Of a stretch of DNA of 40,810 nt, positions 9,504 through 16,260 are shown piece after piece. Source of the DNA: Verrucomicrobiia bacterium (GTDB lineage Bacteria > Verrucomicrobiota > Verrucomicrobiia > Verrucomicrobiales > DEV007); NCBI GenBank assembly GCA_030425385.1, contig JAUIAH010000050.1:1-40810 (forward strand). The letters are read 5' to 3'. Positions within the stretch are counted from its first letter, which is position 1; every line of letters starts with the position of its first letter. A program made the position numbers and the translations under genes. Below the pieces are notes generated by a model. That model ran no database searches and was not told where the DNA came from. It saw only the letters and a list, made by a program, of their open reading frames with translations.

Positions 9504-10253
9504 ATGCCATTGGAAGGGACAAGTGGATTTCCCGAAACACCGTGGAGCGTGATTCTCCGTTCGCGGACGGAACCAGAGCCGCGCCGCCGGGCAACACTGG
9601 AGGCGGTCTATCAAGCGTATTACGGTCCACTCTATGCGTATGCGCGATGGCGAGGCAATGATGCAGAGGAGGCGAAAGACTTGGTGCAGGATACCTTTGT
9701 CCGTTGTCATTCGACGGATGTGTGGGCCTATGCAGATCCGGGAAAGATGCGTCTTCGGACGCTACTCATCTCAGTGATGAAACAGGCCGCGGCAGAACGC
9801 AAGCGCCACCGGATGGCCCTGAAACGCGGTGGCCGCGACCCCCATTTGTCGCTCGATGAAGCGGCACTCTCGGAAGCGGAAATCCTCACAGATGCTTTGT
9901 CCCCCACACATTCGCCCGAGGCAGCTTTCGACCGCGCCTGGGCCCAGCAGATTCTTCGCCTGACAGAACAGCGAGTGGAGAGCACCTGGCGCAAGCGTCA
10001 TGCGAGCCGTCAGTATGACGCCTTGCAACGACTGTTAGTCACGGGTGCCAGCTCGTCTTATGCCGGCGTGGCCGAGGAGATGGGTGGGACGGTGGGCGCT
10101 CTGCGCACAGGGGTGCACCGCTTGCGCCAGCAACTCAAACAGACGTTTCGCGATCTGGTAGAAGAAACCATGGGGATTCCCGTGGATGAAGCAGCCCTCG
10201 ACGAGGAAGTCCGCTATTTGAGCAGTCTATTGATAAACTCTCAAGACACATGA
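9504..10253 (+). CDS. ECF-type sigma factor
   Basis: A 249-residue product. Region 2 is recognisable: A-L/V-Y-Q-A-Y-Y-G-P-L-Y-A-Y-A-R-W-R-G, then E-E-A-K-D-L-V-Q-D-T-F-V-R. A linker follows, with a region-4-like HTH near residues 185-220 (Y-A-G-V-A-E-E-M-G-G-T-V-G-A-L-R-T-G-V-H-R-L-R). The opening F-P-E-T-P-W-S-V-I-L supports the start at 9504, since related PVC ECF factors begin with a similar F-P-x-T-x-W phrase. The stop overlaps the kinase start by 4 nt (ATGA). This pairing suggests the kinase controls, or is co-regulated with, this sigma factor. No anti-sigma gene is visible. Confidence 0.85.
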   Translation: MPLEGTSGFPETPWSVILRSRTEPEPRRRATLEAVYQAYYGPLYAYARWRGNDAEEAKDLVQDTFVRCHSTDVWAYADPGKMRLRTLLISVMKQAAAERKRHRMALKRGGRDPHLSLDEAALSEAEILTDALSPTHSPEAAFDRAWAQQILRLTEQRVESTWRKRHASRQYDALQRLLVTGASSSYAGVAEEMGGTVGALRTGVHRLRQQLKQTFRDLVEETMGIPVDEAALDEEVRYLSSLLINSQDT

Positions 10254-12529
10254 GTGCATCGCCCTGCGCCCTTTGTCCAATTTGCGGCAATCACTTGGAT
10301 CCTGGTGCTCCATGCGTCTCCTGCCTGGCCCACGCCCTCTGGTCAGATGACGCAAGGCCTCGAAGCGTGGAAGACGCCATCGTAGATGACACCGAGTTGA
10401 TGATTCCAGGGTATCGGTTAGAAGGCGTCCTGGGACGCGGGGGCATGGGAATCATTTATCGGGCAGTGCAATTGGATCCTGAGCGCATGGTTGCTTTGAA
10501 AGTCTTGTTGGTGGGTCGACTCGCATCGATCGAGGCTCAGGAGCGTTTCATGAGGGAGGTGGCGATCGTCGCGAAGCTCCGGCATCCGGGTATCATCGAG
10601 GTCTATGAGGGTGGATTCGCGAAGCGTGAAGGGCTCTTCTACTACGCCATGCCTCTGTTAGAGAAGGCGCGTCCATTGACGGTCTACGCGTCAACTCATT
10701 GTGAGACGATTGATGCGCGGCTAAGTCTGTTTCAGCAGGTTCTCAAGGCTATGCAGCATGCCCATGAGTGTGGCGTGATCCACCGAGATCTGAAACCTAG
10801 CAATGTGCAGGTGGGTGATGACGGACAACCGAAAGTCTTAGACTTTGGACTGGCGAAATGGCTAGAGCCCGATGCCGATCGCACTCAGCTGTCCATGGAA
10901 GGACAAGTGTTGGGCACACCCGCGTACATGTCTCCGGAGCAGGCGGCTGGGGATCCCCACGTGGGTGTCCGGAGCGATGTCTACAGCCTGGGCGTCATGC
11001 TTTACGAAGTCCTCGTGGGGACACCCCCTTTCTCGGTGAAGACCACCAATCGGATCTCCGAGATGCACGAAACGCTGGACAAGATCCAGAACGCGCCTCA
11101 TCCCCGACTTCCCGATGAGATCCCGATAGACTTACGCGCTATCGTGGATCGATCCTTGAATAAAGTGCCAGAGAAGCGCTATGCCTCGGCGCAAGCTTTC
11201 CACGATGATTTGCAGCGTTTCCTTGACCATTTGCCCGTGGAGGCTCGTCCCTTGTCCTCGACCCAGCGTCGGTGGCTGTGGCTGAAGCGGCACCCTCTGC
11301 ACGCCACGGCCTGGTGTCTTGGACTCGCCTTACTCCTCACCTTCGCCATTGGCGGCTCCTGGACAGCGCACCGCCAAGGGGTATTGTTAGAAGCGCTTGC
11401 CGAACGCGACCGAGCACGGCAAGAAGAGTGGGTTCGCCAGGTAATGGATCTGCCATTTGATTGGCTTCCACCTCTCGTTGCTGCGCTACGCGAAGTTGGA
11501 CCAGGCGTGGAAGCGCTCGTGGAGCGAGAACTAGTGAAACCTGATCGAACGGAGGAGGAAGAGATGCGGTTGAGAGCATTGCTAGCTTCCCCTGCCAATG
11601 TCCCCTATTTGAATGAGACATTTCTCCAAACAAAGGATCTGGGAACCGCAATCTTTCTCCGTGATTGTCTAGCTCCACACCAAGAGGATCTTGTCCCGCT
11701 CTGGTGGGAACGTGCCGAAAGCGCTGATCATCATTGGCCAGCACGCTACCGGGCTCTGTTAGGACTTGCGCGCTATGATCCCTTGTCAGAGAAGTGGGGT
11801 AGCTACAAGGGACTACTCGTCGCAGTCACGACAGCAATCTCTCACGAGGATTGGCCGAAGCTGCACTACGCATTCGGATCCGATCTCATCCAGCGGATCA
11901 TCGTTCCCGAACTGCGGAAGCAGATGCGCGCGTGGATTCGCGCGAAACCCAAGCGCGATCGTATTTCCAAGATTCCTCAACTGCTCGCCGCGTGGGTCGA
12001 AGGCCCCATCCGATCACACACGTATCGGCTGATGCTATCGGACGAGGGCTTCCGCAAGCACATTGGAAACCTAGAGGCTCACCCAGAAGACGCCCTCGCA
12101 CTCCTTCATTCGATGGATGCCTCTCTCCGGGAGACGCGCTCCCTTGCCACTCCAGATGCAATCTACTATCCAAGACGCGCCCGCGTCCTTCTAGCACTCA
12201 TGCAGCTCGATCCCAAGGCGCGCGCCTGGGGGCACCTACGCCATCCGATGAAGATGCGCGACCACTTGATGCCGAAATATGCCCTCCTGGAGCTTACTGC
12301 CCCAAAACTCTATCATGTGTATCAAGGCTACGCGAAGAACATCCATTCACACGGCGTCAAGCAGGGGATCGCGCAGTGGATGATACTGACCGACAAGGAC
12401 GGAATCACCTCGGCTATGCGGGATCATATCATTGCGGAACAACAAGCGATTCTGGCCTCGAAGGATCCTCTCATTGACCCTCGATCTAAGACTGCAGCAA
12501 GAGAATTGCTGCGGGAACTGGCAGAGTGA
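10250..12529 (+). CDS. membrane Ser/Thr protein kinase with N-terminal zinc ribbon
   Basis: A 759-residue product. Residues 9-25 form a zinc ribbon (C-P-I-C ... C-V-S-C). The kinase domain spans about 53-325, with G-R-G-G-M-G glycine loop, V-A-L-K-V-L lysine, H-R-D-L-K-P-S-N catalytic loop, D-F-G-L-A, and S-P-E-Q in place of APE; all key residues are present, so it should be active. One TM segment at about 350-375 (C-L-G-L-A-L-L-L-T-F-A-I-G-G) follows. The ~380-residue C-terminal part is helical, of unknown fold, and would be on the other side of the membrane. It may be a sensor replacing the PASTA or WD40 domains of other PVC kinases. Translationally coupled to the ECF sigma gene. Confidence 0.9.
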   Translation: MSASPCALCPICGNHLDPGAPCVSCLAHALWSDDARPRSVEDAIVDDTELMIPGYRLEGVLGRGGMGIIYRAVQLDPERMVALKVLLVGRLASIEAQERFMREVAIVAKLRHPGIIEVYEGGFAKREGLFYYAMPLLEKARPLTVYASTHCETIDARLSLFQQVLKAMQHAHECGVIHRDLKPSNVQVGDDGQPKVLDFGLAKWLEPDADRTQLSMEGQVLGTPAYMSPEQAAGDPHVGVRSDVYSLGVMLYEVLVGTPPFSVKTTNRISEMHETLDKIQNAPHPRLPDEIPIDLRAIVDRSLNKVPEKRYASAQAFHDDLQRFLDHLPVEARPLSSTQRRWLWLKRHPLHATAWCLGLALLLTFAIGGSWTAHRQGVLLEALAERDRARQEEWVRQVMDLPFDWLPPLVAALREVGPGVEALVERELVKPDRTEEEEMRLRALLASPANVPYLNETFLQTKDLGTAIFLRDCLAPHQEDLVPLWWERAESADHHWPARYRALLGLARYDPLSEKWGSYKGLLVAVTTAISHEDWPKLHYAFGSDLIQRIIVPELRKQMRAWIRAKPKRDRISKIPQLLAAWVEGPIRSHTYRLMLSDEGFRKHIGNLEAHPEDALALLHSMDASLRETRSLATPDAIYYPRRARVLLALMQLDPKARAWGHLRHPMKMRDHLMPKYALLELTAPKLYHVYQGYAKNIHSHGVKQGIAQWMILTDKDGITSAMRDHIIAEQQAILASKDPLIDPRSKTAARELLRELAE

Positions 12530-12649
12530 AGGTCAACGCCTTCGGCATCGCCCGCTCTCGCTTGCTTGCGTTCAAGGTCTGTTTGCGATAGGAAAGCTCC
12601 GTCATGCGATTCCTTCTTCTCATCATCTGCAGTGCCTGCGACGCGACCC

Positions 12650-14008
12650 ATGGCTGACGTTCAATCACGCCCCTTTCTCACCGGTGTCATCGAGGGGTTT
12701 TACGGGCGCCCTTGGACAACGGATCAACGGCGTCGGCTCTTTGCGCAAATGCAAGCGGCTGGACTCCGTTGCTATGCTTATGGGCCGAAAGATGATCTTC
12801 ACCATCGTGCTTGTTGGCGGGAGGCTTATTCCGAGTCCGCCTGCGCGGATCTGCGGGCATTGATCGATCTCTGTCATGCACATGACTTGCGCTTTCTTTA
12901 TGCGTTGGGGCCGGGTTTGGATGTCTGTTATGCAGACCCGGAAGACAGCGTCCGCATGGCGGAACGTTATGCTCAAATCATGGCGTTAGGGGCGGATGAC
13001 GTGGCTCTGCTGTTCGATGATATTCCCGATACGATGGCTCAAGCGGACGCGGAACGCTTTGGAAGTTTCGCCAAGGCCCATGCGCATGTGGCCAACGAGG
13101 TGTTCGCTCGGCTCACCAAGGCTTCCCCCGATCTTCGTTTCCTCTTCTGCCCCACTCCCTATTGCAGCCGGATGGCGGACGCGGCTCTCGGCGGTGAGGG
13201 CTACTTACGTGAGTTGGGCGAGGCGTTGCATCCAGAAATCGATGTGTTCTGGACGGGACCGGAGATCATCTCGGCGACGATTGATGATGCCCACGCACGC
13301 ATGATCGGCGATCTTCTGAAACGCCCGCCAATGATCTGGGACAATCTACAGGCGAACGATTACGATTTGCGCCGCCTCTTTGTCGGCCCCTGTCAGGGGC
13401 GTCCTTCGCACCCTGAGGAAAGCTTGTCTGGCATCTTCATTAATCCTAACTGCGAGTTTGAGGCTAACTTCATTCCCATCCACACTTTGGGCGCTTACGT
13501 TTCTAAAGGTTCTGCCTACCAATCTTTGGATGCCTTTTCCGAGGCCCTTGAAGCCTGGCTACCCGCGTTCGCGTCTACCGGCGATGCCTGGACCCTCGAT
13601 GAGGTGCGTTTGCTAGCAGAGATCTTCTATTTGCCACATGAAGATGGGGCGGCCGCACAGCAACTGTTAGAAGACGCCATGGTGGTGGCCTCGCGTCCTC
13701 CCGATGCTTGGGGAGAAGCGGAAGGACGCCTGCGGGAATGGCACACCACGGTGGTGCGCATCGCCGTCAAACTGACCGAATTGAAGAATCGCGATCTCTT
13801 CTACACTTTCAATCGCCAGTGGTGGGAACTGCGCGAAGAGTTGGAGCTTCTGACTCAGTACATGGATTGGCGTCAGTCGGAGACTCCCGACGAGCGCTTC
13901 TTCCCATCTGAGCATCTTCTCGGAACATTCCGGGGAGGCGTCGTGGCGCGTCTACAAGGCTTTCTCGCCATGGAGCCCGATGGCTCTATCAAATCCACAC
14001 ACGCATGA
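12650..14008 (+). CDS. GH84 beta-N-acetylglucosaminidase (O-GlcNAcase)
   Basis: A 452-residue product using ATG at 12650 (M-A-D-V-Q-S-R-P-F). The frame opens at 12566 with a TTG, but the extra residues show no signal peptide or homology. The sequence begins directly with the GH84 barrel: G-V-I-E-G-F-Y-G-R-P-W at 12-22, Y-G-P-K-D-D at 44-49, and the catalytic Asp pair in L-F-D-D-I-P (D123, D124). Substrate-site phrases such as W-D-N-L-Q-A-N-D-Y and I-N-P-N-C-E-F-E-A-N follow. GH84 enzymes remove GlcNAc by substrate-assisted catalysis. With no signal peptide, the enzyme looks cytoplasmic. First gene of a four-gene amino-sugar operon with 4-8 nt overlaps. Confidence 0.9.
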   Translation: MADVQSRPFLTGVIEGFYGRPWTTDQRRRLFAQMQAAGLRCYAYGPKDDLHHRACWREAYSESACADLRALIDLCHAHDLRFLYALGPGLDVCYADPEDSVRMAERYAQIMALGADDVALLFDDIPDTMAQADAERFGSFAKAHAHVANEVFARLTKASPDLRFLFCPTPYCSRMADAALGGEGYLRELGEALHPEIDVFWTGPEIISATIDDAHARMIGDLLKRPPMIWDNLQANDYDLRRLFVGPCQGRPSHPEESLSGIFINPNCEFEANFIPIHTLGAYVSKGSAYQSLDAFSEALEAWLPAFASTGDAWTLDEVRLLAEIFYLPHEDGAAAQQLLEDAMVVASRPPDAWGEAEGRLREWHTTVVRIAVKLTELKNRDLFYTFNRQWWELREELELLTQYMDWRQSETPDERFFPSEHLLGTFRGGVVARLQGFLAMEPDGSIKSTHA

Positions 14009-14646
14009 GCTCCGACACCATCATTCGTCCCTACCGGCCCGGCGACGAGTCTGCTGCTAGCGACGTGTGCCTGCGAACCGGCGATCACGGCGCGGACGGC
14101 ACGCCCTTCTATCAGGATGATCCCGACGCTCTCGCCCGGATCTACGTCTTTCCCTACCTGGAGTATGCACCACATCTCGCCTTGATGTTAGAAGATGCGG
14201 AGGGCGTCTGTGGCTACGCCATGGCGGTCGAGGATTCACGGGCGTTCTTTGACCACTATGAACGAGTTTGTCGCCCTCGCCTTTGTGAGCGTTTTCCAGC
14301 GCCCACCGGACCACGATCATCATGGTCTCGGGTCGACAACGTCCACTGGCTCTATCATCATCCCGACTATCACTGCCCTGAGCCCTACGCTCAGTATCCC
14401 TCTCACCTGCACATCGACCTCCTCCCTCGGGCTCAAGGCAAAGGACGCGGTCGGCGCATGATTGAGACTCTCTTGCATCAGCTGCGTGTGCGAAACTCGC
14501 CTGGGGTGCATTTGGGAATGAGTGCCCTGAACACGCCTGCCTACGGCTTTTATCGTGCTCTTGGCTTTGCAGAGCTGGATCGCGATGGCGAAGGGGTGGA
14601 CGAGGCTATCTACCTTGGCATGATCCTCCAATCGATCGATGGCTGA
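14005..14646 (+). CDS. GNAT acetyltransferase related to the OGA HAT-like domain
   Basis: A 213-residue product. GNAT motif A is clear at 136-151 (H-I-D-L-L-P-R-A-Q-G-K-G-R-G-R-R), which would bind acetyl-CoA. N-A(L)-N-T-P-A-Y-G-F-Y-R-A-L-G-F forms motif B. The N-terminal phrase C-L-R-T-G-D-H-G and Y-P-S-H-L-H-I-D-L-L-P are those I know from the bacterial homologues of the C-terminal HAT-like domain of human O-GlcNAcase. The gene starts 4 nt inside the end of the GH84 gene, so the two halves of the eukaryotic enzyme are here separate but translationally coupled. The acceptor substrate is unknown. Confidence 0.85.
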   Translation: MSSDTIIRPYRPGDESAASDVCLRTGDHGADGTPFYQDDPDALARIYVFPYLEYAPHLALMLEDAEGVCGYAMAVEDSRAFFDHYERVCRPRLCERFPAPTGPRSSWSRVDNVHWLYHHPDYHCPEPYAQYPSHLHIDLLPRAQGKGRGRRMIETLLHQLRVRNSPGVHLGMSALNTPAYGFYRALGFAELDRDGEGVDEAIYLGMILQSIDG

Positions 14647-15526
14647 TTACATCATCGGCATCGACGGAGGGGCCACCCGAAGTGTGGGCGTGGCGATGGG
14701 ATTGGATGGCACCATCCTCTCAGAAGCTTCAGGCCAAGGTCTCAATGCCTGTGCGACCTCAGTGACCTCCTTTCAACACCATCTCCAGGATCTCTGGAAC
14801 GTGCTCACAGCAAGGCGCAGTGGCACCTGCCTGAGTGCTGTGATCGGCACAGCCTCTCTCTTCGAGGAGGCGAGCCCTTCAGAGAAGGAAGCCCTGCTCG
14901 ACACTCTGACATGTTTACCAAGAAAGACGCGCTTGATTGGTGACGCGATGACCGCTCTCTACGGGGCCACGTCCGGGAATCCCGGGGTCCTGGTCATTTC
15001 TGGGACAGGATCGATCGCCATGGCGTTAGGAGCGGATGGCAAGCATCGGACCATGGGGGGTTTCGGTGCCTTGTTAGGTGGCGATCCCGGAAGCGCCTTT
15101 TGGATGAGTTGTCAGGCCATTCTCCACGCAGAGACGCTCCTGCCCTCTTCCCCACTGAGACGCGCCATCGTGGAACATTTCGATGTTGCTACCCTGCATG
15201 ACCTCGTTGGGCTGTCCGTCGACCAGATCGCGAGTCTAAGCGGTCACCTTTCCATTTGCATGTCAGAAGACACTTATTGGCAGCACATCGAGGAGGATGC
15301 CGGACGAGCATTGGCGCGCTTCTCGTGGCCTCTCCTGGAGGATCATCCTCAGCTGCCTGTCTATGTGTCAGGTTCTGTGCTTGAGAAGAATCAACGGGTG
15401 CGCGGCGCCTTTTCCCAAGCGTTAGCCGTCAATGCGGGTCATGACGTTCTCTTGAACACGCCATGTGCTTCCGCCGCCGTGGGAGCTGCCTTTCTTGCCT
15501 TACACACGCTTCCTCTTGATTCATGA
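14639..15526 (+). CDS. BadF/BadG-type sugar kinase, probable N-acetylglucosamine kinase
   Basis: A 295-residue product of the ASKHA ATPase fold. Phosphate-1 motif I-G-I-D-G-G-A-T-R-S at residues 6-15; phosphate-2 region V-L-V-I-S-G-T-G-S-I-A; G-G-F-G-A-L-L-G-G-D-P-G-S-A matches the NagK-like E/D-G-S signature. The C-terminal adenosine motif V-Y-V-S-G-S-V is present. Human NAGK and bacterial MurK/NagK share this plan. Starts 8 nt inside the GNAT gene; ends overlapping the SIS gene by 4 nt. In this operon it most likely phosphorylates GlcNAc released by the GH84 enzyme (inference). Confidence 0.85.
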   Translation: MADYIIGIDGGATRSVGVAMGLDGTILSEASGQGLNACATSVTSFQHHLQDLWNVLTARRSGTCLSAVIGTASLFEEASPSEKEALLDTLTCLPRKTRLIGDAMTALYGATSGNPGVLVISGTGSIAMALGADGKHRTMGGFGALLGGDPGSAFWMSCQAILHAETLLPSSPLRRAIVEHFDVATLHDLVGLSVDQIASLSGHLSICMSEDTYWQHIEEDAGRALARFSWPLLEDHPQLPVYVSGSVLEKNQRVRGAFSQALAVNAGHDVLLNTPCASAAVGAAFLALHTLPLDS

Positions 15527-16260
15527 GCCTTGCCGATACCTATTTCAAGACCGTGCATGATCAGTTAGACGCCATCGCGCGCTCACAACGCCCTATCATT
15601 GCGCAAGTGGCGGAACACGTGTCTGCATGTTTGTTGGAGAATCGCTGGTGGTATCTCTTCGGAACGGGGCACTCACACATGCTCGCAGAAGAACTATTCT
15701 ATCGCGCAGGAGGGCTCCCTTGTATCCGGCCGATTCTTTGTCCTGATCTCATGCTGCACGAATCAGCGGTAACGTCCACAATGAAGGAACGTCAATTGGA
15801 GCGGGCAGCCTCCATCCTGAAAGCGTATCCCATGCAGGCTGACGACCTCCTTCTCATTGCTTCCAATTCTGGACGAAACGCTGTCCCGGTCGAACTCGCC
15901 AAACAAGCGTTAGAGCGAGGCGTCCGCGTCGTCGCCCTGGTGAATCGGCGGCACAGTGAACAGTATCCGTCCAGACATCCGTCCGGGAAGACGTTGGCGG
16001 ACCTGGCTGAGATGGTTCTCGACAATGGCGGTGTCCCCGGCGATGCCTGCGTATCGTTGCCCGAAACGGACATCCGCATCGGTGGCGCCTCGACCATCAC
16101 TGGCGTGATGCTGCTCCAGATGATTGCCTGTGAGGCCGTGGAGAAGGCCATGGCGTCTGGCTGGAAACCAGAGGTCTTTCAAAGCGCCAATGCCGGCCGA
16201 GAAGAGGCAAATGCGCAGATCCTCGCGCGTCTACGGAGGGCTGAGGTGCGTCATTTGTGA
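15523..16260 (+). CDS. SIS-domain sugar-phosphate protein (UPF0309-like)
   Basis: A 245-residue product with one SIS domain (about 35-180). The phosphosugar-binding parts are W-Y-L-F-G-T-G-H-S-H and L-L-I-A-S-N-S-G-R-N-A-V-P; the end is A-N-A-G-R-E-E-A-N. It matches the stand-alone UPF0309-type SIS proteins rather than MurQ or GlmS. Last gene of the amino-sugar operon, where it could bind or isomerise the sugar phosphate made by the kinase. Neither a NagA deacetylase nor a NagB deaminase is encoded nearby, so the downstream chemistry is open. Confidence 0.75.
   Translation: MSLADTYFKTVHDQLDAIARSQRPIIAQVAEHVSACLLENRWWYLFGTGHSHMLAEELFYRAGGLPCIRPILCPDLMLHESAVTSTMKERQLERAASILKAYPMQADDLLLIASNSGRNAVPVELAKQALERGVRVVALVNRRHSEQYPSRHPSGKTLADLAEMVLDNGGVPGDACVSLPETDIRIGGASTITGVMLLQMIACEAVEKAMASGWKPEVFQSANAGREEANAQILARLRRAEVRHL

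Follow-up and report, generated by a model that had tools for sequence, protein, structure and literature searches.

The 40,810-nt contig of a Verrucomicrobiia bacterium analysed here (GCA_030425385.1, contig JAUIAH010000050.1; hereafter the window) carries four overlapping genes on its plus strand, encoding in this order a glycoside hydrolase of family GH84, a GNAT acetyltransferase related to the histone acetyltransferase (HAT)-like domain of animal O-GlcNAcase (OGA), a BadF-type kinase and a SIS-domain protein. We give a probability of roughly 55% to the reading that this is a cytoplasmic operon for amino-sugar salvage and not a system of protein O-GlcNAc cycling. In the scheme proposed, a glucosamine-containing glycoside would enter the cytoplasm (by import in the relatives), and the GNAT would use acetyl-CoA to acetylate the glucosamine unit of this glycoside at the free 2-amino position. 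The GH84 enzyme would then release N-acetylglucosamine (GlcNAc), using the 2-acetamido group in catalysis, while units already acetylated would bypass the GNAT. The kinase would convert GlcNAc to GlcNAc-6-phosphate (GlcNAc-6P), and the SIS enzyme would act either on this product or on that of a NagA encoded elsewhere. We infer these reaction steps, and most of all what the GNAT acetylates, from the gene anatomy, the protein families, the intact acetyl-CoA loop, a fusion in a genome of the same genus, the linkage to sugar importers in relatives and a recurrent kinase-SIS module. The four reading frames overlap at their stops and starts as the preliminary description of this DNA had it, by 4 nt between GH84 and GNAT (14005-14008), 8 nt between GNAT and kinase (14639-14646) and 4 nt between kinase and SIS gene (15523-15526). 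The order is more than chance, since it is repeated in two other genomes, in one of which GH84 and GNAT are fused.

The chemical argument for this scheme starts from the hydrolase. Enzymes of family GH84 rely in catalysis on the 2-acetamido group of the substrate itself, so that a glucosamine end with a free amine should resist cleavage, a difficulty that a re-acetylating GNAT would solve. Catalysis through the 2-acetamido group is described for human OGA (PMC10636738). A composite enzyme of just this kind is RmNag of Rhizomucor miehei, in which a beta-N-acetylglucosaminidase is coupled to a GNAT and whose cleavage of (GlcN)2 is reported to depend on added acetyl-CoA (PMC4680927). The same working is proposed for the window pair, although the hydrolase of RmNag belongs to GH3 and not to GH84. 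The authors of that study note the similar layout of O-GlcNAcases and cite a clostridial enzyme as a parallel of the beta-N-acetylglucosaminidase/GNAT type (PMC4680927).

Sequence, fold and tree agree that the window GNAT is genuinely related to the OGA HAT-like domain, as had been supposed at the outset. Beyond a general PF00583 match (9.8e-07), a single-sequence search of the PDB returned only SsAT, OgpAT and OGA entries at E <=0.001. With a profile of 39 bacterial GNAT sequences, SsAT (4bmh, 9e-75) and OgpAT (3zj0, 4e-66) were followed by OGA at 1e-34 to 7e-31, aligned end to end over the whole domain; among the best 60 of 190 matches examined, the next GNAT outside the OGA family reached 1e-9 over about 55 residues only. 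An AlphaFold model (pLDDT 96.3) was placed by VIA-align closest to OgpAT (3zj0; Z 30.5, 202 residues aligned, 1.4 A), then to SsAT (4bmh; Z 28.0) and to a eukaryotic OGA HAT-like domain (6r45, presumably from Trichoplax; Z 26.1), after which Z dropped to 17.8. Grouping with OGA domains in a phylogeny had been set as a test in advance, and the window GNAT does group with them: in a quick tree a branch marked 100* has 43 rows on one side, including the window protein, OgpAT, SsAT and both OGA sequences, and 29 other GNATs on the other. The position of the two OGA rows within their side is uncertain, as both sit on long branches (2.8 and 2.7) and they do not pair up. The motif RAQGKGRG (residues 142-149), which the preliminary description had pointed out, contains an intact acetyl-CoA loop, QGKGRG (residues 144-149, nt 14434-14451), satisfying the [Q/R]-x-x-G-x-[G/A] rule quoted in PMC3814719, and a PxHxHID motif is kept in 39/39 bacterial rows and replaced in human OGA. 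From its gene context, we propose that the window GNAT may be a glucosaminide N-acetyltransferase.

The GH84 protein matches PF07555 at 1.5e-73 (248 bits, cut-off 25). Its best PDB matches were 7khs and 2xsa, the latter of which we take to be OgOGA, both near 1e-99, with animal OGA at about 1e-92 to 1e-88 and the secreted bacterial enzymes BT_4395 (about 8e-39) and NagJ (about 1e-33) far behind; as judged from these matches, it is of the OGA type, nearer to OGA than to secreted bacterial GH84. The DD, WDNxxAND and NPN motifs are present, the Asp pair D123-D124 lying at nt 13016-13021, and D123, D124, W230, N232, D237 and N265, presumably catalytic or sugar-binding residues, are invariant in an alignment of 17 sequences. 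The catalytic Asp pair of GH84 is described in PMC4683255. The enzyme is probably cytoplasmic, in agreement with the earlier view: no signal peptide was seen in frame with GH84, the PF07555 match beginning 12 residues from the ATG at 12650, and in 23/39 relatives an in-frame stop lies at most 20 codons ahead of the profile match, so that almost no room is left for one. A hydrophobic stretch just upstream (12604-12657) was considered as an overlooked signal peptide and rejected, being out of the GH84 frame, barring a one-base assembly error.

The neighbourhoods of related GNAT genes provide the link to sugar uptake. A scan of contigs gave at least 593 pattern matches, at least 576 of them GNAT relatives, of which the best 80 loci (L004-L083) were kept by similarity of the GNAT and not at random; the closest group (L004-L049, 46 loci) was bounded above the first Streptomyces row, and two of its members, L024 and L025, are near-duplicates by appearance. 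Genes were called by codon scoring together with profile searches. The neighbourhood survey suggested by the preliminary description bore out the pair, as GH84 stands upstream of the GNAT on the same strand in 38/46 of the closest loci (38/44 when only loci with 1.6 kb or more visible upstream are counted). A transporter adjoins 26 of these 38 pairs (22/29 where 1.5 kb or more is visible downstream), namely an EIIC of the LacE/cellobiose/diacetylchitobiose family in 23 and an ABC sugar importer, preceding the pair, in 3. LacE-family EIIC genes occur in 28/46 closest loci and lie immediately 3' of the GNAT in 19, including 5 without GH84, for 3 of which at least 3.5 kb upstream is visible. A representative EIIC matches TIGR00410 at 330 bits (cut-off 236) as well as Pfam PTS_EIIC; Enzyme I of the phosphotransferase system (PF05524) is found in 36/39 genomes, which says little on how the EIIC works. 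In one locus (L044) an ABC importer, GH84, GNAT, kinase and SIS gene form a single run. Closer to the window, a genome of the same genus (L130:2073-4004, minus strand) encodes GH84 and GNAT as one 643-aa protein with an intact RAQGHGQG motif, directly followed by kinase and SIS genes; this is one case in a fragmented assembly, presenting an OGA-like architecture in a single polypeptide. Among other features of these loci, 12/46 also carry a gene for a DegT-type aminotransferase, up to about 7 kb off, and in L004, L006 and L012 a LacE-family EIIC gene comes directly after that of the GNAT, while the 3.5 to 8 kb upstream contain no GH84.

The same loci bear on another explanation, in which the GNAT would acetylate a protein at its N-terminus or a lysine and so regulate the pathway, or in which the pair would act as a GlcNAc sensor in the manner of fungal Ngs1. 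Ngs1, which combines a glycoside hydrolase domain with a GNAT, is reported to sense GlcNAc and to act through histone acetylation (PMC5063960), and N-terminal acetyltransferases are among the nearest folds of the window GNAT after the OGA family (Z about 15-17). However, the structural study of Rao et al. (2013; PMC3814719) describes two insertions that make a narrow tunnel over the catalytic site, and in some loci the GNAT adjoins a sugar importer without any GH84. A protein acceptor or a sensing role thus appears unlikely.

The last two genes fit the handling of an amino sugar. The kinase matches PF01869 over its cut-off (8.8e-15), and the NagK_SO3507 equivalog weakly (1.1e-11, 44.8 of 370 bits, the cut-off not being reached); its five PDB matches at E <=0.01 include hexokinase 2e2n (8e-12), the MurNAc/GlcNAc kinase 8zo3 (5e-11) and NAGK 2ch6/2ch5 (7e-11). 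This agrees with its earlier description as amino-sugar-like, and its sequence predicts that it is probably a GlcNAc (amino-sugar) 6-kinase. The SIS protein matches PF13580 (2.4e-38) and NF002805 (3.4e-78, 262 bits, cut-off 135); nearest to it in the PDB is 3cvj (1e-45), followed by the Streptomyces GlcNAc-6P dehydratase NagS (SCO4393, 9eol; 1e-27), a member of a related SIS family (PMC12680351). Over 188 positions it is 36.7% identical to NagS and keeps H53, S54, R64, E94, S119, S121, D179 and N228, hence all four essential catalytic residues (H53, R64, E94, D179), while S91 is replaced by Thr. Kinase-SIS is a module in its own right. A BadF-type kinase adjoins the SIS gene, or is separated from it by one gene, in 9/30 SIS loci of the phylum, with no GH84 within about 1.5 kb, which suggests that the kinase product is likely the SIS substrate. 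L161-L164, L167, L170 and L175 carry tandem SIS-SIS gene pairs, with a BadF-like kinase upstream in L161-L163. In L191 and L192, by appearance, genes for a ceramidase-like protein and for two DegT-like aminotransferases come after a kinase-SIS pair.

The identity of these two genes is also where recycling of peptidoglycan must be weighed. The clostridial NagZ-GlmA-MurK-MurQ set is the model for this explanation, GlmA of Clostridium acetobutylicum being presumably the clostridial enzyme likened to RmNag. GH84 would cut GlcNAc off muropeptide sugars, the kinase would act on MurNAc or GlcNAc, and the SIS protein would be an etherase. The kinase match to 8zo3 would suit such a route, as would the relationship of NagS to MurQ reported in PMC12680351 and the statement, in PMC4680927, that in some bacteria glucosamine acetyltransferases modify the non-acetylated sugars of peptidoglycan ahead of cleavage by a glucosaminidase. 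However, the SIS protein falls into NF002805 and no MurQ model matched it at E <=0.1; the hydrolase is GH84 and not a GH3 NagZ; and the transporters linked to the pair in relatives are of the LacE and ABC types. Taken together, we regard peptidoglycan recycling as improbable.

Protein O-GlcNAc removal, in which GH84 would strip bacterial proteins of their sugar and the rest of the operon would recycle it, is the least probable of the explanations considered. OgOGA and animal OGA are the nearest relatives of the window GH84, which has no visible signal peptide, and Thermobaculum terrenum possesses a cytoplasmic OGT/OGA pair (PMC4683255). TtOGA is a cytoplasmic bacterial GH84, as is predicted for the window enzyme, but it is without a HAT-like domain and its host's genome has a GT41 enzyme (PMC4683255). 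The preliminary description had called for a search for an O-GlcNAc transferase (OGT)-like glycosyltransferase. Such a search found no GT41 in any of the 4 genomes of the genus, that of the window included (8.0 Mb, 95.5% complete, with the window as contig C74), while control searches were positive in Caulobacter and Synechococcus. Among 37 other pair-bearing genomes, of unstated completeness, GT41 matched in 7 at E <=0.001 and in 6 over the cut-off, leaving 31 without an over-cut-off match, and in a draw of 387 genomes of the phylum GT41 occurred in 31 and GH84 in 64, but both in only 2 (G153, G373). These searches, together with the adjoining sugar importers in relatives, disfavour protein O-GlcNAc cycling. 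Of the earlier suggestion of an intracellular route for GlcNAc removal and recycling, the salvage part is therefore favoured and the part concerning protein modification is not supported. The operon, the natural fusion and the importer linkage argue against reading GH84-GNAT pairs alone as a sign of bacterial protein O-GlcNAc cycling. The six loci with a pair whose genomes have an over-cut-off GT41 (L005, L014, L018, L022, L024, L029) are candidates for real bacterial O-GlcNAc cycles. The same description had reported that NagA and NagB are absent, which holds for the window's contig only, as both have matches above their family cut-offs on other contigs of this genome, C55 and C72.

Several observations weigh against amino-sugar salvage as proposed. 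The complete four-gene set was found in only 2/47 of the other closest loci (L003/L130 and L044), counted in a set where some loci end early on the downstream side and where the kinase and SIS profiles, built from few seeds, may let distant neighbours escape. None of the other 34 GNAT loci has a GH84 neighbour, 32 of them showing at least 1.6 kb upstream, which suggests that some OGA-type GNATs work without GH84; these loci are mainly from Actinomycetota, with Meiothermus, marine Neomarinimicrobiota and one Rhizobiales metagenome-assembled genome. In the rhizobial locus (L077) a SIS gene, whose product has a sub-threshold MurQ match (26 of 168 bits), adjoins the GNAT, and sugar-type ABC genes are nearby. 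The GNAT is missing from 2/4 genomes of the genus. In the phylum draw a GNAT match (E <=1e-10) was found in 31 genomes, together with GH84 in 2 (G000 and G374), in the second on separate contigs, so that the genome of the window is the only one in the draw with the two genes as a pair; the 29 of the 30 remaining GNAT matches that were put in the tree form a separate clade. None of 30 GH84 loci from this draw had a GNAT within about 1.5 kb, and the pair is thus a minority arrangement in the phylum. As for import, no LacE-type EIIC was found in the 4 genomes of the genus, where ABC importers were not surveyed, and no transporter adjoins the window operon except a convergent SulP-type gene downstream. 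The RmNag precedent is also weakened: its structure is absent from the best 60 of the 190 PDB matches of the GNAT profile, making it an analogue and not a demonstrated homologue, and likewise from the best 50 fold matches of the model, which excludes nothing. We found no report of an OGA-type GNAT with a tested acceptor, and OgpAT is said to bind acetyl-CoA with an acceptor called unidentified (Rao et al., 2013; PMC3814719). Finally, Streptomycetaceae orthologues of NagS share 58.7% identity or more, a floor well above the 36.7% of the window protein, and homologues at 26-36% had negligible or no activity on GlcNAc-6P (PMC12680351). It is therefore doubtful, from its sequence, that the window SIS protein acts on GlcNAc-6P as NagS does.

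The GH84-GNAT pair itself, its likeness to human OGA and acetyl-CoA binding by a bacterial GNAT have already been published (Rao et al., 2013; PMC3814719). In Oceanicola granulosus a GH84 gene (OgOGA) is likewise followed immediately by that of an acetyl-CoA-binding GNAT (OgpAT, 3zj0) of the same two families, with a function that the authors call unknown (PMC3814719). The window differs from that system in the added overlapping kinase and SIS genes, and the survey adds the natural fusion and the importer linkage. These three points appear to be new; neither the operon of four genes, nor a fused GH84-GNAT protein in bacteria, nor the linkage to EIIC came up in our literature search, which is weak evidence of absence. 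Animal OGA has the same two domains in the same order, but in the window the proteins are separate, have kinase and SIS neighbours and are encoded in a genome where no GT41 was found; moreover, the acetyl-CoA loop is intact in the window GNAT, whereas acetyl-CoA binding is lost in animal OGA. According to PMC12494797, the animal enzyme ends in a C-terminal pseudo-HAT domain that is non-catalytic and whose function is unknown. We tentatively suggest, as an idea that may well fail, that the OGA-family GNAT was ancestrally a glucosaminide N-acetyltransferase working in series with GH84, a composite enzyme for glucosamine and GlcNAc ends that is split or fused in bacteria, and that animal OGA is a fused descendant that lost acetyl-CoA binding and kept the GNAT for another role. 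Operon, natural fusion and importer linkage would point to acetylation of glucosamine oligosaccharides as the possible ancestral activity. As metabolism such a pathway is ordinary; its interest lies in a concrete candidate ancestral activity for the animal pseudo-HAT domain, which, if the suggestion is true, becomes testable.

Table 1. Features of the four-gene operon and its start region in the window.
Feature	Position	Strand	Basis
GH84 beta-N-acetylglucosaminidase, OGA type (TIM barrel plus stalk), probably cytoplasmic	12650..14008	+	PF07555, PDB matches, motifs
GNAT acetyltransferase, OGA HAT-like/OgpAT/SsAT family; proposed glucosaminide N-acetyltransferase	14005..14646	+	profile search, tree, AlphaFold model
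BadF/BcrAD-type sugar kinase, probably GlcNAc (amino-sugar) 6-kinase	14639..15526	+	PF01869, PDB matches
SIS-domain phosphosugar enzyme, NF002805/PRK02947 subfamily, relative of NagS and 3cvj	15523..16260	+	NF002805, PDB matches
Hydrophobic 17-codon open reading frame (ORF), out of frame, over the GH84 start; possible leader/coupling ORF or chance	12604..12657	+	read from sequence

The short ORF of Table 1 overlaps the GH84 start by 8 nt and is preceded by a Shine-Dalgarno-like AGGAAAG, while promoter-like and terminator-like sites occur at about the level of shuffled sequence (3 against 2.8 and 8 against 5.7, respectively). Just upstream, the operon is preceded on its own strand by two genes that overlap by 4 nt (9504-12529), one encoding an ECF-like sigma factor and the other a Ser/Thr protein kinase. 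The genome has a second SIS gene; by eye, a similar-looking sigma/kinase pair is found near it (L195:31-3409), and it adjoins a ROK-like kinase.

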